Of a stretch of 16,961 nt of DNA, positions 1,214-10,085 are shown piece by piece. How positions within the stretch are numbered: position 1 is the stretch's first letter; every line of letters begins with the position of its first letter. Position numbers and translations under genes: made by a program. The DNA comes from Candidatus Lithacetigena glycinireducens (GTDB taxonomy: Bacteria; Coprothermobacterota; HKB111): contig QLUP01000010.1 of the NCBI GenBank assembly GCA_018725485.1, forward strand, positions 1 through 16,961. The letters are read 5' to 3'. Below the pieces are notes generated by a model that saw only the letters and a program-made list of their open reading frames with translations, ran no database searches and had not been told where the DNA came from.

Positions 1214-1956
1214 TATTGCATTTGCAGTGGTATAACCTTGACCTACATATACATTCTGTTTTATCTCCTTGTTCTACCTGGGATATGAGCCCCAAAAAAG
1301 TTTTAATGGAAACCAGAAAAAAAAGTTTAGATATGATTGGAATAACTGACCACCATTCAGTTCGTAATTATCCCGCTTTTTGTGAACAGGGTAAATTATG
1401 TGGAATTAGGGTTATACCCGCAATAGAAGTGCAAACAAAAGAAGAAGTTCATCTCCTTTTATATTTTCGTACTTACAGGCAAGCCCTCAGATTTGAAGTT
1501 GAAATACTTAAAAATTCACCTTCGATTATTGATGAGGTTAGTGCTATAAAGCCTCAATGCGTGGTCAATCAGGATGATATGGTGATAAAAGTTGAAAAAC
1601 GATTACTTTTATTTTCAGTTGATTTACCCCTTCATAGTGTAATAAAACTGGCCAGAACCTATGAAACCCTGGTTATTCTGGCTCATATTAATCGTCCAGC
1701 TTTCAGTATTTATTCTCAATTAGGTTTCCTACCTCCAGATATAGATATAGATGGGGTAGAAATATACAATTATAGGAATTCTGAATTGTTAATTCCCCAT
1801 AATGTTGGAATTATTTATGGTTCCGATGCCCATGACTTACCAGCTATAGGTAGATTTGTCACTCAGGCCTGGGTTAACGAACCTACCTGGGAAGAGTTAA
1901 GATTAGCCTTAAGAAACATTGGAGGCAGATTGTTAAGGAGGAAAGATGATTCTTGA
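1210..1956 (+). CDS. PHP-domain phosphoesterase-like protein
   Basis: A 248-residue PHP (polymerase and histidinol phosphatase) family protein, predicted to be a metal-dependent cytoplasmic phosphoesterase. The metal-site motifs are intact: Asp-Leu-His-Ile-His at residues 11-15, Thr-Asp-His-His at 46-49, a Glu in the Glu-Val-Gln-Thr segment, an Ala-His-Ile-Asn-Arg-Pro histidine, and a C-terminal Ser-Asp-Ala-His. The Ser-Pro-Cys-x4-Met-Ser-Pro segment after the first motif is typical of the clostridial PHP proteins found near hydrogenase sensors. The GTG start at 1210 overlaps the preceding stop (GTGA), which implies translational coupling; TTG codons at 1216 and 1222 are alternatives. The 3' end overlaps rnfC by 11 bases. 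The substrate is unknown; a nucleotide or phosphate-ester signal is only a guess. Confidence 0.85.
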   Translation: MILHLQWYNLDLHIHSVLSPCSTWDMSPKKVLMETRKKSLDMIGITDHHSVRNYPAFCEQGKLCGIRVIPAIEVQTKEEVHLLLYFRTYRQALRFEVEILKNSPSIIDEVSAIKPQCVVNQDDMVIKVEKRLLLFSVDLPLHSVIKLARTYETLVILAHINRPAFSIYSQLGFLPPDIDIDGVEIYNYRNSELLIPHNVGIIYGSDAHDLPAIGRFVTQAWVNEPTWEELRLALRNIGGRLLRRKDDS

Positions 1957-3247
1957 ACATGAGTTATTTCCGCATGAGTTCAAATTTTCAAGTAAAAAAC
2001 CCATAGTTAATCTTCAAACCCCAAAAAGAATCGTTATGTTGATGCAACAACATACTGGAGCGCTAGCTCAACCGACGGTAAAAGCGGGGGATACTGTTAT
2101 AAAAGGGCAGGTAATAGGAGATTCTCCAGGTTATGTTTTTGCTCCCATTCATTCTTCTATAAGTGGAAAAGTAAAATCAATTTCGCCCTGGCTTCACCCG
2201 ATACTTGGTCGAGAGATCGAGTCTATAATTATTGAAGCAGATGGCAGCGCTGATGAAATTAGGCTTAAACCACTAAATTATCCTATTACCCCGGATGAAA
2301 TCAGGCAAAGAGCAAGGGATGCTGGGCTTGTGGGGCAGGGCGGAGCAGCTTTTCCCACACATGTGAAGTTAAACCCAACCAAGCCTATTGAATATGCCAT
2401 TATCAATGGGGCTGAATGTGAGCCTTATCTAACTGTGGACCATAGGCAGATGCTGGAGAATCCCAAAAAACTTATTTCTGGTTTGAGGCTTATCATGTCA
2501 GCGGTAGGAGCCAAAAAGGGTTTAATTGCCATTGAAGATAATAAAAAAGATGCAATTACCCTGCTGAAAGTGCTGGTCAGAGAATTCCCGGATATTAGAG
2601 TTTTTGTATTGCCGAGTAAATACCCACAGGGAGCTGAAAAAGTAATGATTAAGACTATTATTGGAAAAGAGGTACCCCGGGGAGGACTTCCTCAGGATGT
2701 GGGTGTAGTGGTTATTAATGTATCAACAGCTATTAGCCTGGCAGAAGCTGTTTTTGAGGGTAAAATACTTACCGAGAAAGTTATAACCATTTCAGGCGAT
2801 GCTATAAGTGAACCTGCCAATGTTAAAGTTCACTTAGGGACAATCGTCAAAGATGTTATAGAGAATACAGTTGAATTTGCAAATGGTTACTCCAGGTTTA
2901 TAATGGGTGGACCTATGACAGGTTTTTCTCAAGCTACTCTTGATGTGCCTATCATAAAGGGAACATCTGGTTTATTGTTTTTAAGAAAAACCAGGATTCA
3001 GGAAACAGCAGAATGCATCAGATGTGGCAGGTGCATTCAGAATTGTCCTCTCCGGCTTATGCCTGCTTATATTACTTCCAGTACAAAGTTAGGTGAGTAT
3101 TCCAGGGCAGAATTTTACGGAGCCTCTGACTGTTTTGAATGTGGTAGGTGCTCTTATGTTTGTCCAGCTAACATTCCTCTTGTTCACTATGTTAAAGTAG
3201 CCAAAACCGAACTGTTTAAAATGAAAAAAACTGGTTCGAAGTCTTAG
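1946..3247 (+). CDS. rnfC: Rnf complex subunit RnfC
   Basis: This 433-residue protein is the peripheral NADH/FMN and Fe-S subunit of the Rnf ferredoxin:NAD+ oxidoreductase. An N-terminal RnfC barrel-like region is followed by the Gly-rich flavin/NAD segment Gly-Leu-Val-Gly-Gln-Gly-Gly-Ala-Ala-Phe-Pro-Thr at 127-138 and the Asn-Gly-Ala-Glu-Cys-Glu-Pro-Tyr stretch at 154-161, then an SLBB-type region. Two 4Fe-4S sites follow, with cysteines at 357/360/363/367 and 396/399/402/406, the first three of each in CxxCxxC spacing. The length fits the short clostridial form; the proteobacterial protein carries a long C-terminal extension that is absent here. The ATG at 1946 sits after an AAGGAGGAAAG site inside the end of the PHP gene. 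It is the first gene of an intact C-D-G-E-A-B series. Confidence 0.96.
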   Translation: MILEHELFPHEFKFSSKKPIVNLQTPKRIVMLMQQHTGALAQPTVKAGDTVIKGQVIGDSPGYVFAPIHSSISGKVKSISPWLHPILGREIESIIIEADGSADEIRLKPLNYPITPDEIRQRARDAGLVGQGGAAFPTHVKLNPTKPIEYAIINGAECEPYLTVDHRQMLENPKKLISGLRLIMSAVGAKKGLIAIEDNKKDAITLLKVLVREFPDIRVFVLPSKYPQGAEKVMIKTIIGKEVPRGGLPQDVGVVVINVSTAISLAEAVFEGKILTEKVITISGDAISEPANVKVHLGTIVKDVIENTVEFANGYSRFIMGGPMTGFSQATLDVPIIKGTSGLLFLRKTRIQETAECIRCGRCIQNCPLRLMPAYITSSTKLGEYSRAEFYGASDCFECGRCSYVCPANIPLVHYVKVAKTELFKMKKTGSKS

Positions 3248-3260
3248 GAGGTAGGATAAG

Positions 3261-4196
3261 TTGGCAGAATTGAAGGTAAGTAAAGTTATAATATCACCCT
3301 CTCCCCATTTTCATGCTAATATCAACCCCGACAGAATAATGAATCGGGTTATACTTTCCCTGGTACCAGCTTCTCTTGCTGCTTTTTACTTTTTTGGATG
3401 GATTAGTTTTTTGAAAATCGTGGGTTTGTCAGTTGCTTCAGCGGTATTTTTTGAGTTTATTATCTTGAGGTTATTTAAACGAAAACCTCTCCCGGGAACT
3501 TATTCCAGTAGTATTGTTACAGGATTACTCCTGGCTTTAACTTTACCTCCTACCTCTCCCTGGTGGATACCGATTGTGGGTAGCGCTATTGCCATAATAG
3601 TAGCGAAAGAATTTTTTGGAGGTCTTGGGCATAATCCTTTTAATCCGGCGCTTGTTGGAAGGGCAGTGTTATTAATTTCCTGGCCTACCCACCTGACAAC
3701 TTTTATTCAGCCTTTTTCAGGGATAACCACAGCCACTCCCCTGGCTTTTTTCAGGGATAATCTATCTTTGCCTTCTTATCAGGATTTATTTTTAGGTAAT
3801 ATTGCCGGTTCTTTAGGAGAAACCTCAGCCATAGCCCTGATAATAGGAGGTTTATTCCTGCTATTATCAAGAACTATAGAGTGGCAGATACCTACTGCCT
3901 TTCTGGGATCAGTTGCAATTTTGAGCCTGACCCTGGGTAGAGATCCAGTCTTTGACCTCCTATCAGGAGGGATTCTTATGGGGGCATTTTTCATGGCAAC
4001 AGATTATGTTACCAGCCCAATTACTCCCTGGGGAAGATTACTATTTGGCATTGGTTGTGGTTTATTAACCATTACTATCAGGGCTTTTGGTGGTTATCCT
4101 GAAGGGGTTACTTATGCCATCCTTATTATGAACGCTTTTGCACCTATGCTGGAACAGGCAACCCTTCCCAGGAAATTTGGGACGGTGCACAAATGA
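3261..4196 (+). CDS. rnfD: Rnf complex subunit RnfD
   Basis: An integral membrane subunit of 311 residues in the NqrB/RnfD family, with roughly eight to ten hydrophobic segments. It carries one covalently bound FMN in characterised homologues. The N-terminus has the family Ser-Pro-Ser-Pro-His pattern (12-16), and Gly-His-Asn-Pro-Phe-Asn-Pro-Ala at 123-130 is also characteristic. The flavin attachment segment reads Ser-Gly-Ile-Thr-Thr-Ala-Thr-Pro-Leu (153-161), and Thr159 is the expected FMN-linked residue. The usual leading Asp of this ApbE recognition motif is Ser here. The start is TTG at 3261, nine bases after AGGAGGT at 3246-3252. The stop overlaps the ATG of rnfG (ATGA). Confidence 0.95.
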   Translation: MAELKVSKVIISPSPHFHANINPDRIMNRVILSLVPASLAAFYFFGWISFLKIVGLSVASAVFFEFIILRLFKRKPLPGTYSSSIVTGLLLALTLPPTSPWWIPIVGSAIAIIVAKEFFGGLGHNPFNPALVGRAVLLISWPTHLTTFIQPFSGITTATPLAFFRDNLSLPSYQDLFLGNIAGSLGETSAIALIIGGLFLLLSRTIEWQIPTAFLGSVAILSLTLGRDPVFDLLSGGILMGAFFMATDYVTSPITPWGRLLFGIGCGLLTITIRAFGGYPEGVTYAILIMNAFAPMLEQATLPRKFGTVHK

Positions 4197-4756
4197 ATGT
4201 TCTTCGACTTGGTTTTATATTAATGCTGGTGAGTGCAATATCAGCCGGAGCCCTGTCTTATGTTTTCTTTCAAACCAAACCTATAATTGAACAACGAAAA
4301 GCTGAAGATACCAAGCGGGTGTTATTAGAAGTGTTGCCTTCAGCGAAAAGTTTTAAAGAATTAAATAGCTCTGAGTTCAAGCCTCTCGATGATTCAGTAA
4401 TGTTCATCACAAATATATACCTCGGTATTGGTTCTCAAGATAACCCGGTTGGAGTAGCAATAAAAGGAGTGACCGTAGGTTATGGTGGTTCTATTGTAAT
4501 ACTGATAGGAATTTCCAACGATAACAAAATTACCGGGATTGAAATAATAGAGCACAAGGAAACTCCTGGTCTTGGCTCTAAGATTGCTGAAAAATCTTTT
4601 ACCGGTATGTTTGTCAGCAAGACCTTGAACGACCCCTTAACTATAAAAGATGATTTAACTGCAATAGCAGGAGCAACCAAATCTTCACAAGCAGTTGCTA
4701 AACTCGTTAAAAAAATAGCAGATTATGTGTTAAAAAATAGGGAGGCTTGGAGATAA
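4193..4756 (+). CDS. rnfG: Rnf complex subunit RnfG (flavoprotein)
   Basis: A 187-residue FMN-binding subunit with a single N-terminal membrane anchor (about residues 5-26) and an extracytoplasmic FMN_bind domain. The Glu-Thr-Pro-Gly-Leu-Gly motif lies at 123-128. The flavin attachment site is Thr-Ala-Ile-Ala-Gly-Ala-Thr-Lys-Ser-Ser at 156-165, with Thr162 the likely modified residue. Compared with the common Asp-Ala-Ile-Ser-Gly-Ala-Thr form, the Asp and Ser are replaced by Thr and Ala. The ATG at 4193 overlaps the rnfD stop and has no clear ribosome binding site, so it probably depends on coupling. The stop TAA shares a base with the preferred rnfE start. Confidence 0.94.
   Translation: MNVLRLGFILMLVSAISAGALSYVFFQTKPIIEQRKAEDTKRVLLEVLPSAKSFKELNSSEFKPLDDSVMFITNIYLGIGSQDNPVGVAIKGVTVGYGGSIVILIGISNDNKITGIEIIEHKETPGLGSKIAEKSFTGMFVSKTLNDPLTIKDDLTAIAGATKSSQAVAKLVKKIADYVLKNREAWR
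4739..4745 (+). promoter_or_regulatory. Ribosome binding site fixing the rnfE start
   Basis: AGGGAGG lies inside the end of rnfG. It sits only one base before an in-frame TTG at 4747 but ten bases before the ATG at 4756. The distance therefore favours the ATG and removes three residues from the longest possible protein. Confidence 0.6.
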
Positions 4757-5379
4757 TGAAACAGCTCTGGAAAGATTTTGTAAATGGCATTATATCGGAA
4801 AATGCTGTTCTAAAACTTATGATTGGCTTATGCCCTGTTCTTGCAATATCAACTACGGTTGTTAATGGAGTTGGCATGGGTCTGGCTACCACTTTTGTTC
4901 TTCTGGGTTCAAACCTAACCATCGCTCTTATCAGGAATATTGTTCCTAAAGAAATAAGGATACCGGTGTTTATTATTGTTATTGCTACCTTTGTAACTAT
5001 TACCGACCTGTCTATGGCTGCTTATTTTCCAGCTTTACATAAAACCCTGGGTATTTTCATTCCTCTTATCGTGGTTAACTGCATCATCATGGGTAGGGCA
5101 GAGGCTTTTGCTTCCAGAAATACCCCAGTAAGGGCAATTGCTGATGGTTTGGGTATGGGAATTGGCTTTATCTTAACTCTCATATTGCTTTCAGGTGCGA
5201 GAGAACTTCTCGGTAACGGAACTATTTTTGGAGCTTCTCTGCCTTTTAAAGGTTTTGAACCTGCCTTAATAATGATTCTTCCGCCAGGTGCATTTTTTGC
5301 TATCGGTATTATGATTGCTATATTCAACAACCTGTTTAAACTGAAAAGAGACGGAGGACACAAACATGGATCTGCTTAA
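4756..5379 (+). CDS. rnfE: Rnf complex subunit RnfE
   Basis: A 207-residue integral membrane subunit of the NqrD/RnfE family with about six hydrophobic segments. The two half-site motifs of the intramembrane Fe-S centre are present: Gly-Leu-Cys-Pro (Cys26) and Val-Val-Asn-Cys-Ile-Ile-Met-Gly (Cys108), followed by the conserved Arg-Ala-Glu-Ala-Phe-Ala segment. Together with RnfA it forms the inverted-repeat core that carries electrons across the membrane. I place the start at ATG 4756 rather than TTG 4747 because of the ribosome-binding-site distance. It overlaps rnfA by 14 bases. The C-terminus is short and basic. Confidence 0.95.
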   Translation: MKQLWKDFVNGIISENAVLKLMIGLCPVLAISTTVVNGVGMGLATTFVLLGSNLTIALIRNIVPKEIRIPVFIIVIATFVTITDLSMAAYFPALHKTLGIFIPLIVVNCIIMGRAEAFASRNTPVRAIADGLGMGIGFILTLILLSGARELLGNGTIFGASLPFKGFEPALIMILPPGAFFAIGIMIAIFNNLFKLKRDGGHKHGSA

Positions 5380-5941
5380 GCTTTTCATTGCCGCCTTACT
5401 TGTTAATAATATCGTCCTTATGAGATTCCTGGCGCTGTGTTCTTATGTAGGAATGACTGCTGAACCCGGACCCGCCCTGGGTATAGGATGGGCAGTTACA
5501 TTTGTAATGGTATTAGCCGGAGTGGTAACCTGGTTTCTGAATGTTTTTGTCTTACAACCCCTGGGATTAACTTTTTTGAGCACCCTTATTTTTATACTGG
5601 TCATTGCCTCTCTAGTTCAACTGGTGGAGATTTACCTCAGGAAAAGCATACCTTCCCTATATCATGTTATGGGAATCTATCTACCTTTAATAACTACTAA
5701 CTGCGCTATTTTAGGACTAACTTTTATCAATCAAAGAGAGGGATTTACCCTGATACAATCAATTGTTAACTCTATTGGAGTTGCCTGGGGCTATACCCTG
5801 GCTATGCTCCTGTTAGCCAACCTCAGGCAGAGGATAAAGCACAGTAATGTACCTAAATTTCTGGATGGTTATCCCATAGTGTTTATACTCACTGCTATTC
5901 TGGCAGTAGCATTTATGGGATTCACCGGTATGGCTAAGTAA
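5366..5941 (+). CDS. rnfA: Rnf complex subunit RnfA
   Basis: A 191-residue, six-segment membrane subunit, homologous to NqrE and paired with RnfE. The Asn-Asn-Ile-Val-Leu segment at 14-18 precedes Cys25, and a second cysteine lies in Thr-Thr-Asn-Cys-Ala-Ile-Leu-Gly (Cys113). These match the cysteines proposed to hold the shared Fe-S centre. The first motif reads Ala-Leu-Cys-Ser instead of the more usual Gly-Leu-Cys-Pro, but the Cys is kept. A GGAGGA site at 5353-5358 precedes the ATG at 5366, inside the end of rnfE. The next gene, rnfB, follows after 12 bases. Confidence 0.95.
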   Translation: MDLLKLFIAALLVNNIVLMRFLALCSYVGMTAEPGPALGIGWAVTFVMVLAGVVTWFLNVFVLQPLGLTFLSTLIFILVIASLVQLVEIYLRKSIPSLYHVMGIYLPLITTNCAILGLTFINQREGFTLIQSIVNSIGVAWGYTLAMLLLANLRQRIKHSNVPKFLDGYPIVFILTAILAVAFMGFTGMAK

Positions 5942-5953
5942 GGAGGCAAAAAG

Positions 5954-6781
5954 ATGGTTGAATTTATTATTCAGAGCTTACTGGTTACCGGTGGTTTGGG
6001 GTTGGTTTTTGGATTGGGGTTAGCCTTATTTTCCCAGAAATTTAAAGTTGAAGAAGATCCTCGTTTAGAGCTGATTCAAAACATTCTGCCCGGGGCAAAT
6101 TGTGGAGCCTGCGGTTATCCCGGGTGCAGGCAATTAGCCCAATCTATTTTACGAGGCGAATTAGGACCAGAAAAATGTACTGTGGGAGGAAGTAAAGTAG
6201 TTACTGAAATTGCTAACTTATTAGGAATTGAAGTTGCAGAAGTAAAACCAGGTGTGGCCCGGGTTAAATGTCAGGGAGATGAAGCCCGAGCTTTTCGACG
6301 GGCTGAATATTACGGAATCAACACCTGCAATGCAGCTTCTCAAATTTCTGGTGGTTTTAAACAATGTTTTTATGGATGTTTAGGGTTGGGGGATTGCGTT
6401 GAAGCATGTGTTTTTGATGCCCTAACTATGTCTACTGATAATTTGCCCATAGTTGAGGAAGGTAAATGCACTGCTTGTGGTTTATGTGTTAAAGCCTGTA
6501 CCAGAAAAATTATAGAGATTTTTCCTCGAGAAAATGCTGTTATTATCGCTTGCGTTTCACCTCAGAAAGGCCCGGAAGTTCGGAAAGCCTGTCAGGTAGG
6601 ATGCATCAAATGTGGCATATGTGTTAAGAATTGCCCTAAAGGCGCAATTCATCTTGAACCATCCTTAGGGAATCTGGCTGTTATTGACTATAACCTGTGT
6701 GATAACTGCGGAACCTGCGTGGAAAAATGTCCCACTAAAACCATAGTTAATTATCTTAGGGTGCCTATACATGCTGGTTAA
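5954..6781 (+). CDS. rnfB: Rnf complex subunit RnfB (polyferredoxin)
   Basis: A 275-residue electron-entry subunit that accepts electrons from reduced ferredoxin. A hydrophobic N-terminal anchor (about 5-26) is followed by a four-cysteine Fe-S domain with C50, C53, C58 and C75. Four ferredoxin-type cysteine groups come next: C138/142/148/152, C172/175/178/182, C217/220/223/227 and C249/252/255/259. That suggests about five 4Fe-4S clusters, as in the extended clostridial RnfB rather than the shorter proteobacterial form. The Cys-x3-Cys-Leu-Gly-Leu-Gly-Asp-Cys segment is typical of RnfB. A TAAGGAGG site overlapping the rnfA stop precedes the ATG. The 3' end overlaps the next gene by 11 bases, which ties the AmmeMemoRadiSam genes to the Rnf operon. 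Confidence 0.96.
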   Translation: MVEFIIQSLLVTGGLGLVFGLGLALFSQKFKVEEDPRLELIQNILPGANCGACGYPGCRQLAQSILRGELGPEKCTVGGSKVVTEIANLLGIEVAEVKPGVARVKCQGDEARAFRRAEYYGINTCNAASQISGGFKQCFYGCLGLGDCVEACVFDALTMSTDNLPIVEEGKCTACGLCVKACTRKIIEIFPRENAVIIACVSPQKGPEVRKACQVGCIKCGICVKNCPKGAIHLEPSLGNLAVIDYNLCDNCGTCVEKCPTKTIVNYLRVPIHAG

Positions 6782-7559
6782 AAAAGGGTTTCTTTTTCCT
6801 CACCCTCCATTGTTAATCAAAGAAATCGGCGGGAAAAGACTTCAGGAAGTGAGTAAAACCTTAAAAGGAATTGAAAAGGCCCTGGAGCAACTGGAAGGGA
6901 TAAATTTTGATACCATAGTTATTTTTGGTCCTCACACTACTATTTCCAGAAGAGGAATATCAGTTTTAGCTTCCAGGAAAGTAAAAGGGGACTTTTCTAA
7001 TTTTGGTTTTCCTGAGGTAGCTCTTTCAGGTGAATGCGACGAAGAATTTATTTCCCGTTTAGTCTCTAAGGAAAACAAGGTTCAGTTCAATCCCTTATAC
7101 GAAACCTCCCTGGACCATGGCATCATGTTACCGCTTTACTTTTTACAAAAAATAGGCATCAAGGGCAAACTGGTTATTACCGGTATTGCCTGGGAGGGAG
7201 CAGATTACCATATTGATTTTGGAAAAATTATCAGTGAGACTGCACGAGAATTAAACAGAAATTTACTGCTGGTTGCCAGTGGAGATTTATCACATCGTTT
7301 AACCTATAACGCACCAGCAGGATATAACCCCCAGGGAAAACTGTTTGATAGTATGATAGTTAATTTCTTTGAAACCGGTGATGCTTCCAGGATAAAAAAT
7401 TTGGATTGGGAATTATTGGAAAGAGCTGGGGAATGTGGATATAGACCCTTAATGACCTTAATAGGTGCGTTTTCAGATTCTCCCTTTAAGTCAAAGCTAT
7501 ATTCTTATGAAGGTCCTTTTGGCGTAGGTTATCTGGTGGGAGGTATAGAGGAAAGATAA
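6771..7559 (+). CDS. AmmeMemoRadiSam protein B (MEMO/LigB-like dioxygenase fold)
   Basis: A 262-residue protein of the class III extradiol dioxygenase-like (LigB/MEMO) fold. Candidate metal or active-site residues are visible: Phe-Pro-His-Pro-Pro (His11), Phe-Gly-Pro-His-Thr (His55), Leu-Asp-His-Gly (His116), and Ser-Gly-Asp-Leu-Ser-His (Asp172, His175). There is no signal peptide or membrane segment, so it is expected in the cytoplasm. It belongs to a conserved trio with AMMECR1 and a radical SAM protein, all present next to it here; the trio's reaction is not established to my knowledge. The ATG at 6771 lies inside the end of rnfB with only a weak upstream site (TAGGGTG), which suggests coupling. 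The following AMMECR1 gene is in the same frame, directly after the TAA stop, so this may be half of a protein that is fused in relatives. Confidence 0.87.
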   Translation: MLVKKGFLFPHPPLLIKEIGGKRLQEVSKTLKGIEKALEQLEGINFDTIVIFGPHTTISRRGISVLASRKVKGDFSNFGFPEVALSGECDEEFISRLVSKENKVQFNPLYETSLDHGIMLPLYFLQKIGIKGKLVITGIAWEGADYHIDFGKIISETARELNRNLLLVASGDLSHRLTYNAPAGYNPQGKLFDSMIVNFFETGDASRIKNLDWELLERAGECGYRPLMTLIGAFSDSPFKSKLYSYEGPFGVGYLVGGIEER

Positions 7560-8072
7560 TTGCATCCTCTGGTGGTTCTGGCAAAAGAAGCAGTGGAACT
7601 TTATCTAACTGAGGGGCGAAAACCCTCTCCAGCAATTATTGATGAGTTGGGTTATGACTACCGATTACCAGCACCTTGCTTTGTAACTATACGCTTTAAG
7701 GGAAAATTACGAGGTTGTATTGGAACTATCTCCAGCACTCAGGAAAATATAGCTTTAGAAATTATTGAAAACGCTATTAAATCTGCCACCAGGGACCCTC
7801 GTTTTCCTCCCATTCAGACCAACGAGATTCCCTACCTGACATATTCTATTGATATGCTTGGTCCTTTACAGGAAGTTAGCGATATATCCAGGCTTAATCC
7901 CCTAAAGTATGGAGTAGTAGTGGAAAAAGGGCTGAGAAGAGGGGTGTTGCTACCTGACCTAGAAAGCATAGATTCTGTAGAACAACAATTACGCCTAGCT
8001 CGATTAAAAGCCGGTATTGATGAGGACGATGAGATTAATATATATTTTTTTGAAGTTCAAAGGTTGGAATAA
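7560..8072 (+). CDS. AmmeMemoRadiSam protein A (AMMECR1 domain)
   Basis: A 170-residue AMMECR1-domain protein. The signature Leu-Arg-Gly-Cys-Ile-Gly-Thr is at residues 50-56, preceded by Phe-Val-Thr-Ile, and the conserved Asp-Pro-Arg-Phe-Pro-Pro segment follows. The proposed start is TTG at 7560, immediately after the TAA of the MEMO-like gene and in its frame. The GAGGAAAG stretch at 7548-7555 is a plausible binding site. The N-terminus (His-Pro-Leu-Val-Val-Leu-Ala-Lys) already lies inside the first helix of the domain, with almost no leader, as expected if this were the second half of a fused protein. The domain's chemistry is unknown; the conserved Cys53 may be functional. Confidence 0.9.
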   Translation: MHPLVVLAKEAVELYLTEGRKPSPAIIDELGYDYRLPAPCFVTIRFKGKLRGCIGTISSTQENIALEIIENAIKSATRDPRFPPIQTNEIPYLTYSIDMLGPLQEVSDISRLNPLKYGVVVEKGLRRGVLLPDLESIDSVEQQLRLARLKAGIDEDDEINIYFFEVQRLE

Positions 8073-8074
8073 GT

Positions 8075-8084
8075 AAGGGGGATT
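8075..8084 (+). promoter_or_regulatory. Ribosome binding site supporting a CTG start
   Basis: AAGGGGGATT ends seven bases before CTG 8092. The identical ten bases, at the identical distance, precede the TTG start of the ApbE gene (9055-9064). An in-frame TAA at 8089-8091 rules out any earlier start. Confidence 0.6.
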
Positions 8085-8091
8085 TAATTAA

Positions 8092-9102
8092 CTGAATAAA
8101 GCATCTTATTATGAATCCTTAATAGATAATAAGGTTCGATGCCTTCTTTGTTCTAACCTTTGCCTGTTATCTGAAGGAAAAATAGGTAAGTGTGGTGTAA
8201 GGGAAAATATTAAAGGTGTCCTTTATTCTTTGATTTATAACCGGGTTGCTTCCATAGCAGTAGATCCAATTGAAAAAAAGCCCGTGTATCATTATAAACC
8301 CGGAAGTTCAGTTCTTTCTGTAGGGACGGTTGGGTGTAATTTAAGGTGTCGCCATTGTCAGAATTGGGAGTTATCTCGTTCGTCTCGCCAGAATGTAAAT
8401 TTAAGGGATATTAGTACCCACCAGCTTTCTAGAATAGCCTTAAAAACAAACTCTAAAGGAGTCAGCTGGACCTATAATGAACCCACTATCTGGTTTGAAT
8501 ATGTTATTGAAAGCGCAAAAAATGCACGGGAGAATAATCTGTACACGGTTATGGTTACTAATGGATTTATCAGGGAAAAGCCTTTAAGTGAATTAATCAG
8601 CTACATAGATGTTTACAGGGTTGATATTAAAGCTTTTTCTCAGAACACTTTTAAAATAATAACAGGTTTATCTGAGGTAGAAATTCCCATGGTATCTGCT
8701 TTACAGGCAAAAGAGTCAGGAATTCATGTAGAAATTGTGACAAACATTATAACCACCATTAATGATACTGAGGATGAACTGAGGTCAATTGCCACTTTTA
8801 TAAGTGAAAAACTGGGAAATAAAACCCCCTGGCACATTACCCGTTTTTTCCCTTATCTGGAATTATCTTATCTTCCTCCAACTCCTATACAATCGCTCAT
8901 CAGAGCTAAAGAAATAGGTAAGGAGTGTGGAATAGATTTTATTTATATAGGAAATGCCAGGGAAAGGTTAGAAGAAAACACTGTCTGTCCCAGGTGCGAT
9001 AGTGTTGCCATAAAAAGGACTGGATTTGAAGTTTATAAGGTCGATGTTACGGAAAAGGGGGATTGTAAGACTTGCGGAGAATATTTAAATATTTACCCCT
9101 GA
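8092..9102 (+). CDS. AmmeMemoRadiSam radical SAM protein (probable CTG start)
   Basis: A 336-residue radical SAM protein in the AmmeMemoRadiSam/PflA-like group. The cluster motif Cys-x3-Cys-x2-Cys is at 82, 86 and 89 (Gly-Cys-Asn-Leu-Arg-Cys-Arg-His-Cys). An N-terminal cysteine cluster (C17, C20, C24, C34) reads like the family's usual opening, and the C-terminus has two Cys-x2-Cys pairs (299/302 and 325/328), possibly a zinc ribbon. The first conventional in-frame start is TTG 8230, which would remove the N-terminal cysteine cluster. The frame has a stop at 8089-8091 and its first codon after that is CTG 8092, well placed behind AAGGGGGATT. I therefore extend the gene to CTG. Its substrate is unknown; the MEMO-like or AMMECR1 partner, or a small molecule they handle, are possibilities. 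It overlaps apbE by 31 bases. Confidence 0.88.
   Translation: MNKASYYESLIDNKVRCLLCSNLCLLSEGKIGKCGVRENIKGVLYSLIYNRVASIAVDPIEKKPVYHYKPGSSVLSVGTVGCNLRCRHCQNWELSRSSRQNVNLRDISTHQLSRIALKTNSKGVSWTYNEPTIWFEYVIESAKNARENNLYTVMVTNGFIREKPLSELISYIDVYRVDIKAFSQNTFKIITGLSEVEIPMVSALQAKESGIHVEIVTNIITTINDTEDELRSIATFISEKLGNKTPWHITRFFPYLELSYLPPTPIQSLIRAKEIGKECGIDFIYIGNARERLEENTVCPRCDSVAIKRTGFEVYKVDVTEKGDCKTCGEYLNIYP
9055..9064 (+). promoter_or_regulatory. Ribosome binding site for apbE
   Basis: AAGGGGGATT lies inside the end of the radical SAM gene, seven bases before TTG 9072. It matches AAGGAGG with one G in place of A, which can still pair by wobble. It is identical to the site before the radical SAM gene. 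Confidence 0.6.
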
Positions 9103-10085
9103 TTATTTTAGCCTCAGCCCTGCTCTTTGCTTTCTGGGTAAATAAAGCAGAAACCAAACCTGAAACTATTCGAGATATAGCTATGGATACCTTTATAGAA
9201 ATTACTACCTACCATCAACCCAGGGACACAGCTTCCGAAGAGATTTTAAAAGATTTTAAATATCTGGAATCAATCTTTAATCGTTACGATGAGAACTCGG
9301 TTGTTTATGATGTTAATAAACATGCTTTTGAAAAACCCATTTCTATTCCCTCTATCTTTGAGAATTTACTCACTGAGAGTTTAAAGTTGTCTGATTATAC
9401 CGAAGGTCATTTTAATCCTGCGATTGGACCCCTGGTAGATGTATGGAGGAAAGTAATTAAAGGAGAAGATATTTCTAATTTACCTGATATAAATATAGTA
9501 AAAGAGGCAATATCAATAAGTAAAACCGAAAATATAATTATTAACGAACGAAATGGGCAGGTATCCTTTGCTATTCCAGGGGTTTCACTTGATTTTGGTG
9601 CTGTGGTTAAGGGTTTTGCCGTGGATAGAGCTTTTGAAATCCTGAAAAACAAGGGGATTGAAAGAGCCGTTATAAATGCTGGAGGCACTATAGGAGTTTA
9701 TGGTTCTCCGCCAGGAAGGAAATACTGGAGAATTGGTATCCAGCATCCAAGAAAAGAAGGTATTATTGGCGTATTGAATTTAACCTCAACTATGGTAATT
9801 TCAACTTCCGGTGATTACGAAAGGTATAAAATTATTGATGGGAAAAGATATCACCACCTGCTAAACCCTTTTACCGGTTACCCTACTGAGGAGTTACTGA
9901 GTGTAACCATAATAAATAAAAATGGCCTTCTTTCCGATGCTGTTTCTACAGCTGTTATGTCTATGGGCTTAGAGAAAGGGATTGAATTTCTTACCCAAAA
10001 ATCACTAATGGCTATAATCATTACACCCGATTTGAAGATTCATTTTACAGGTGACGCTGAAAGTTTATTTCAGCCAGAGTTATGA
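9072..10085 (+). CDS. apbE: FAD:protein FMN transferase ApbE
   Basis: A 337-residue ApbE-family flavinyl transferase, expected to attach FMN covalently to threonines of RnfD and RnfG. A hydrophobic N-terminal segment (about 8-23) suggests a membrane anchor or signal; I see no lipobox cysteine. Family segments in order: Ala-Met-Asp-Thr (37-40); Gly-His-Phe-Asn-Pro-Ala-Ile-Gly-Pro-Leu (112-121); Asp-Phe-Gly-Ala-Val-Val-Lys-Gly (174-181); Asn-Ala-Gly-Gly (202-205); Ser-Thr-Ser-Gly-Asp-Tyr-Glu-Arg (244-251); His-His-Leu-Leu-Asn-Pro-x-Thr-Gly (261-269); and Ser-Asp-Ala-Val-Ser-Thr (288-293), which holds the metal-binding Asp. In the His-His motif the usual Asp is Asn265. The TTG start has a clear binding site. 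Its place in the Rnf operon strongly suggests the Rnf flavin subunits are its targets. Confidence 0.94.
   Translation: MRRIFKYLPLIILASALLFAFWVNKAETKPETIRDIAMDTFIEITTYHQPRDTASEEILKDFKYLESIFNRYDENSVVYDVNKHAFEKPISIPSIFENLLTESLKLSDYTEGHFNPAIGPLVDVWRKVIKGEDISNLPDINIVKEAISISKTENIIINERNGQVSFAIPGVSLDFGAVVKGFAVDRAFEILKNKGIERAVINAGGTIGVYGSPPGRKYWRIGIQHPRKEGIIGVLNLTSTMVISTSGDYERYKIIDGKRYHHLLNPFTGYPTEELLSVTIINKNGLLSDAVSTAVMSMGLEKGIEFLTQKSLMAIIITPDLKIHFTGDAESLFQPEL

Follow-up and report, generated by a model that had tools for sequence, protein, structure and literature searches.

Why should three genes of a widespread but functionally obscure set lie inside an operon for the Rnf complex and its flavin? 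The stretch analyzed here, called the window throughout, is the 16,961-nucleotide contig QLUP01000010.1 (our contig C2) of Candidatus Lithacetigena glycinireducens, assembly GCA_018725485.1, whose genome amounts to 1.24 Mb and is 83% complete. Between rnfB, the last gene for the Rnf complex, an electron pump that bears flavin, and apbE, the gene for a flavin transferase, it carries the AmmeMemoRadiSam trio, comprising a LigB/MEMO-like protein, AMMECR1, and a radical S-adenosylmethionine (SAM) enzyme (rSAM). An earlier note on this DNA proposed that the trio serves in the maturation or repair of Rnf. We find that it is separable from, and older than, the Rnf operon around it: its fixed neighbor in this phylum is DUF4321-mreBCD, and it persists there in genomes without Rnf, ApbE, or EetB, the last being a flavin exporter subunit. 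We favor, with about even confidence, the reading that the trio is an older separate module whose rSAM, resembling the activase of pyruvate formate-lyase (PFL), has been recruited repeatedly to flavin export and attachment. The three genes are as follows.

6771..7559, + strand: LigB/MEMO-like protein (AmmeMemoRadiSam protein B), 262 amino acids; PF02900, PF01875, TIGR04336
7560..8072, + strand: AMMECR1 (AmmeMemoRadiSam protein A), 170 amino acids, TTG start; TIGR04335, PF01871
8092..9102, + strand: AmmeMemoRadiSam rSAM, 336 amino acids, CTG start; TIGR04337

Contiguous from 6771 to 9102 on one strand and all above the curated cut-offs of TIGR04335, TIGR04336, and TIGR04337, they form the known AmmeMemoRadiSam set.

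The trio without Rnf

The trio is widespread, as the earlier note had said: in the main survey, of 98 genomes sampled across the domain, TIGR04337 was found in 69 and AMMECR1 in 67. Their co-occurrence is nearly perfect (Jaccard index of presence, 0.94) and far above that of rSAM with ApbE (0.59) or with Rnf (0.49), which suggests that the system has a general basic job tied to AMMECR1, for which flavin export and Rnf are one setting. Both rSAM and AMMECR1 occur in the absence of Rnf and ApbE in 21 sampled genomes, seven of them from the window's phylum. Within that phylum, the gene order is LigB/MEMO-AMMECR1-rSAM-DUF4321-mreB in five relatives (G002, G003, G005, G007, and G008) and AMMECR1-rSAM-mreB in two (G004 and G006), and searches across the genomes of these seven, including G002, a single contig that is 99% complete, found no RnfC, ApbE, or EetB. 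Rnf and ApbE are present with neither AMMECR1 nor TIGR04337 above cut-off in G030, which also has EetB, in E. coli, and in a Bacteroides.

The closest named relative of the window genome, which is its sister species, is Candidatus Psychracetigena formicireducens (G001; phylum Lithacetigenota). Its contig L003 carries the genes from rnfC to rodA in identical order, at 70-95% protein identity, and the window's arrangement is therefore not an assembly accident. The sole difference is a broken AMMECR1 in L003: about the last 150 bases of the gene, with a frameshift and a stop, survive as a pseudogene remnant at 9843-9985 (G001:C213), and no second AMMECR1 was found across the G001 genome. The window's AMMECR1 scores 124.5 bits for TIGR04335 (cut-off, 99) and 143 bits for PF01871, with the LRGCIG motif intact. 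Ratios of nonsynonymous to synonymous substitution between the two species are 0.12 for the memo gene, 0.19 for rSAM, and 0.07-0.15 for the rnf genes, indicating purifying selection. That this one species has lost AMMECR1 offers a natural test of which part of the trio is needed.

These patterns bear directly on dedicated maturation or repair, by which the trio would install or repair an Rnf cofactor needed for an active complex. Such a role is favored by the overlapping placement of the trio between rnfB and apbE, by rSAM genes after rnfB in four families (f40, f69, f86, and f93), and by MEMO-AMMECR1 after rnfB in f18. However, relatives of the same phylum keep the trio without Rnf, the sister species keeps Rnf without AMMECR1, and G030, E. 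coli, and the Bacteroides keep Rnf and ApbE without the trio; moreover, Rnf flavinylation has been ascribed to ApbE with no mention of the trio (PMC12174285). As a general requirement, Rnf maturation is largely refuted, and we regard a dedicated Rnf pathway as very unlikely. An obligatory maturation set is ruled out by presence and absence across genomes, and a single operon is too little ground for inferring an Rnf assembly pathway from the trio.

Recurrence beside flavin genes

An rSAM gene was counted as near when it lay on the same strand and at most 3 kb from apbE or eetB, or at most 8.5 kb from rnfC. By this measure 12 of the 48 genomes having both, from 11 families, place TIGR04337 near one of these flavin or rnf genes, where 0.33 would be expected under uniform placement. 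Its tightest partner is eetB (8 of 18), followed by apbE (9 of 47) and rnfC (4 of 34), and in two further genomes, G045 and G074, rSAM directly follows rnfB and was missed in the rnfC count through contig breaks. The rSAM gene stands in rnf operons of families f40, f69, f71, f86, and f93, the last represented by four genomes from a second sample of 241. In a third small phylum, a LigB/MEMO-AMMECR1 fusion directly follows rnfB and rSAM lies elsewhere in 3/3 genomes (G023, G098, and G099); the phylum samples around G023 and around G053 comprised three genomes each. Placement beside these genes is thus not confined to one genome, and the whole trio within rnf-apbE was found, among sampled genomes, in the window's genus only. 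The flavin-adjacent part is mostly rSAM alone, and its nearest neighbors are apbE, EetA, and EetB rather than rnf; it therefore points to flavin supply or attachment more than to Rnf itself.

Family f93 (G103-G106) has the order rnfCDG-moeA-rnfEAB-CutA-rSAM-apbE, followed by genes for a NusG domain II (NusGII) protein and EetB in G103 and G106 and by eetB in G105, and the G104 contig ends within apbE. Three of the four genomes have an 11-bp overlap of rSAM with apbE, and TIGR04337 scores 326 bits in G103 and G106. Two insertions mark these operons: moeA between rnfG and rnfE (L232 3435-4625, L233 3207-4397, L234 10313-11503, and L235 272-1462) and CutA1 between rnfB and rSAM.

A quick tree was built from 134 rSAM proteins, 14 of them flavin-linked; of these 14 rows, 11 group in one 32-row clade (branch value 99; our trees carry no bootstrap). 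The rSAMs of the window, L003, and L094 belong to another clade (33 rows, branch value 96) together with archaeal and Chloroflexi trio enzymes, and the flavin-linked label requires 12 changes over all tree rows. The f93 rSAM, when added, falls outside the window's clade, with a branch of value 99 between them. Judged from these trees, the rSAM-apbE-NusGII-eetB order came about, or was refilled, on two or more occasions, and a single order holding enzymes from two clades argues for function, not descent alone. Of the earlier note's proposal, then, the link of trio parts to the flavin and Rnf machinery is real, but the evidence contradicts a requirement for the trio in Rnf maturation or repair.

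The recurrence also bears on the possibility that the trio merely sits upstream of mreBCD by descent, with rnf and apbE-eetAB added or lost there and no functional link. Such a history would account for the fixed position of the trio beside DUF4321-mreB in the phylum, with or without rnf, and for G053, which has the order rnfB-apbE-eetB-mreB without the trio. We nevertheless consider it rather unlikely, because adjacency in 11 families exceeds chance by far and involves two rSAM clades that share the internal order rSAM-apbE-NusGII-eetB.

Alternatively, the rSAM may need a low-potential electron, supplied through ferredoxin by Rnf running in reverse or, in the case of exported paralogues, by NapH/FMN-bind flavoproteins, and would share operons with flavinylated electron-transfer systems because it draws electrons from them. 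This would fit the rSAM genes adjoining rnf in several families and the exported or exported-clade rSAMs beside a membrane protein joining FMN_bind and 4Fe-4S domains (L113) and NapH-like polyferredoxins (L081 and L119), and retention without Rnf could be explained by other ferredoxin reductants. However, a donor role predicts stronger linkage to rnf than to eetB, whereas EetB/EetA/ApbE is the tightest partner even where rnf lies elsewhere (L094, L095, L097, L151, and L156). We hold an electron-client role possible, though on balance improbable.

Recruitment of an older module to flavin export and attachment would involve a radical enzyme of the PFL-activase type, cytosolic and directed at proteins, which may work together with AMMECR1 on a client common to many anaerobes. 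The EetA-EetB-ApbE machinery and its flavinylated targets could be one recurrent client or co-regulated partner, and the rSAM might aid the delivery or quality of a component, as an accessory to flavin delivery and not as a step required for Rnf assembly. A bolder version, which we think unlikely, makes the TIGR04337 enzyme a component, so far unrecognized, of the bacterial pathway for flavin export and flavinylation; it would modify a pathway protein (for example, a Cys-bearing EetA, or AMMECR1 as partner) before export, by analogy with sulfatase maturases, which act on still-cytosolic proteins, with MEMO/AMMECR1 assisting.

Several points weigh against recruitment. By the distance test, 36 of the 48 genomes with both have no TIGR04337 gene near flavin genes. 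The chance model assumes uniform gene placement and ignores operon structure; many sampled genomes are incomplete metagenome-assembled genomes (MAGs), in which absent means not found; and the MEMO/AMMECR1 content of f93 is known from the rSAM locus alone. Listeria exports flavin adenine dinucleotide (FAD) for flavinylation via EetB, and that account mentions no radical SAM gene there (PMC9973259). Finally, colocalization does not amount to a reaction. Among the other operon neighbors of rSAM genes (119 proteins), Pfam enrichment yielded little besides DUF362 (5) and spermidine-synthase-like proteins (5).

Apart from the window's enzyme, about 20 TIGR04337 rSAMs, nearly forming one clade, have Tat-like or membrane-anchor N-termini beyond the family model. 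They include Tat-like forms (L109, L114, L119, L120, L121, L126, L130, L141, and L147) and membrane- or Sec-like forms (L081, L082, L110, L122, L123, and L138), and several MEMO-AMMECR1 fusion partners of exported-type rSAMs carry signal peptides or lipoboxes. Enzymes bearing such N-termini would make up radical SAM systems outside the cytoplasm, a prospect that would be surprising because SAM is cytosolic. Beside exported AmmeMemoRadiSam genes lie the FMN_bind/4Fe-4S fusion (L113 1430-2635), the NapH-like polyferredoxins (L119 7721-9250 and L081 8629-9633), and, in L119, a DUF362-like protein. L081 and L082 (G001:C235) hold two more exported-clade TIGR04337 genes 16 kb apart, with large spermidine-synthase-like membrane proteins, and may be a MAG contaminant.

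The operon and its flavin genes

The window reads [Fe-S regulator]-DRTGG-PHP-rnfCDGEAB-LigB/MEMO-AMMECR1-rSAM-apbE-NusGII-eetB-DUF4321-mreBCD-pbp2-rodA. Besides the trio, its features are as follows (FMN, flavin mononucleotide; ECF, energy-coupling factor).

1946..6781, + strand: rnfCDGEAB, six-subunit Rnf complex, by family-model matches (rnfC 1946-3247, rnfD 3261-4196, rnfG 4193-4756, rnfE 4747-5379, rnfA 5366-5941, rnfB 5954-6781, all +)
9072..10085, + strand: apbE, FAD:protein FMN transferase with a hydrophobic N-terminus; PF02424, 249 bits
10082..10468, + strand: NusG domain II membrane protein, probable EetA, immediately before eetB; PF07009, 75 bits
10449..10970, + strand: eetB homologue, ECF-S subunit of an FAD exporter; PF07456, 117 bits
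10948..11196, + strand: DUF4321 small membrane protein between the cassette and mreBCD; PF14209, 34 bits
11248..16396, + strand: mreB, mreC, mreD, pbp2, and rodA (cell-shape operon), open reading frames named from sequence

From rnfC through DUF4321, every gene joint is an overlap or a gap of at most 19 bp. The LigB/MEMO-like gene starts at 6771, 11 bp inside rnfB (end, 6781); AMMECR1 abuts it with zero gap (TTG at 7560, stop at 8072); and the rSAM gene (stop, 9102) overlaps apbE (start, 9072) by 31 bp. The sole gap within the trio is 19 bp (8073-8091) and contains a Shine-Dalgarno-like AAGGGGGAT. Terminator matches across the locus were no more than in shuffled sequence, the promoter scan gave 58 matches against 45 +/- 6.5 in shuffled sequence and no usable internal promoter, and a screen of the window for RNA families and tRNA found none of either. 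On the basis of gene overlap, the trio is apparently part of one transcription unit with rnfCDGEAB, apbE, the EetA-like NusG-II protein, and EetB. The earlier note was right about the position and overlaps of the trio; two details needed correction, namely, the rSAM start, moved from TTG 8230 to CTG 8092, and the name MEMO, replaced by LigB-like. The frame is open upstream to CTG 8092, which adds an N-terminal Cys motif, CLLCSNLC...C, and we place the start there because the sister L003 has TTG at the matching position and the added motif is invariant in 22 homologues.

All six Rnf subunits, RnfABCDGE, are present. Five score above cut-off (TIGR01945, 483 bits; TIGR01946, 316; TIGR01947, 113; TIGR01948, 244; TIGR01944, 111), and RnfA, at 226 bits for TIGR01943, falls 3.7 bits short of its cut-off of 229 but is full length and above the Pfam cut-off. 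PF07456, 0.4 kb downstream of apbE, bears the Pfam name heptaprenyl diphosphate synthase component I; according to a study in Listeria, it is the family of EetB, a subunit that binds substrate for an FAD exporter supplying an ApbE-like enzyme (PMC9973259). The NusG-II protein is probably EetA. The earlier note had missed the identity of both these genes downstream of apbE. Taken together, the operon would code for Rnf as well as for exporting and attaching its flavin, the trio lying between these two parts; FAD export is predicted by homology to the Listeria system.

DUF4321 directly follows rSAM in phylum relatives L154, L178, L182, L183, and L189, and the mreB...pbp2 order is kept after rSAM in L154, L161, L166, L178, and L182. 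As a side observation, DUF4321 constantly joins mreBCD to either the flavin cassette or the trio in several lineages (window, L094, L154, L178, and L182), and in G234 it follows eetB.

Comparison with known systems

The two nonradical members of the trio have human homologues, MEMO1 and AMMECR1. Our searches of the literature on AmmeMemoRadiSam, on AMMECR1 with radical SAM, and on ApbE with Rnf and AMMECR1 found no paper on the function of the system. The main texts of a flavinylation survey, an RNF review, an ApbE review, and a 2024 flavinylation paper contain no reference to radical SAM or AMMECR1, nor does the gene-neighbor section of the EetB paper name either (PMC9973259). The rSAM-apbE-eetAB association thus appears to be unreported in the texts of these papers; the protein families themselves are all known. 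For a widespread trio with no reaction described in the literature found, the rSAM-flavin link gives a first concrete place to seek a substrate.

The module of EetB, EetA, and ApbE is itself not new: the window likewise has apbE, a NusG-II protein, and PF07456 beside Rnf (PMC9973259, PMC8238504), and the EetB paper already reports eetA-eetB synteny and eetB lying with eetA, apbE, and Rnf (PMC9973259).

Protein B is LigB-like rather than MEMO proper, judging from its family scores, conserved residues, and predicted structure. It scores 110 bits for PF02900 (LigB) against 47 for PF01875 (Memo) and 32 for TIGR04336 (cut-off, 26). Its model (mean predicted local distance difference test [pLDDT], 86) has the extradiol-dioxygenase fold, with Z scores of 25-27 to 2-aminophenol 1,6-dioxygenase, DesB, and LigB, 20 to MEMO1, and 30 to the uncharacterized TK2203. 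Residues H11, H55, D172, H175, and E247 are invariant across 14 homologues. The metal ligands of human MEMO1 are H49, H81, and C244 (PMC11081632); the two proteins share the fold and two metal-ligand His residues (H11 and H55 here), but the presumed third ligand, by residue conservation, is Glu (E247) in the window protein, as in LigB, and Cys in MEMO1. The window protein therefore has the His/His/Glu pattern and predicted fold of LigB and not the His/His/Cys site of MEMO1. LigB-type extradiol dioxygenases carry out O2-dependent ring cleavage, and a dioxygenase has no obvious use in an anaerobe; for the sister species, an acetogenic metabolism has been predicted (PMC9751293).

The rSAM scores 299.4 bits for TIGR04337 (cut-off, 220) and carries an N-terminal CxxCxxxC, the SAM-cluster CxxxCxxC, and a C-terminal CxxC...CxxC, with cysteines 17, 20, 24, 34, 82, 86, 89, 299, 302, 325, and 328 invariant in 22 homologues. 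Its model (pLDDT, 92) matches PFL-activating enzyme best (Z score of 25 over 224 residues) and NifB next (Z score of 19), and on this structural likeness its substrate is probably a protein or peptide. PFL-activating enzyme is the nearest solved fold to the rSAM domain, at 17% identity, but the window enzyme differs from it by the extra N-terminal Cys motif and the C-terminal CxxC...CxxC and scores below cut-off for all activase models; no glycyl radical enzyme gene was seen in the operon or window. Compared with other AmmeMemoRadiSam systems, the window's set is set apart by a protein B of the LigB type by score and conserved Glu, by its embedding in an rnf-apbE-eetAB operon, and by an AMMECR1 that is being lost in the genus.

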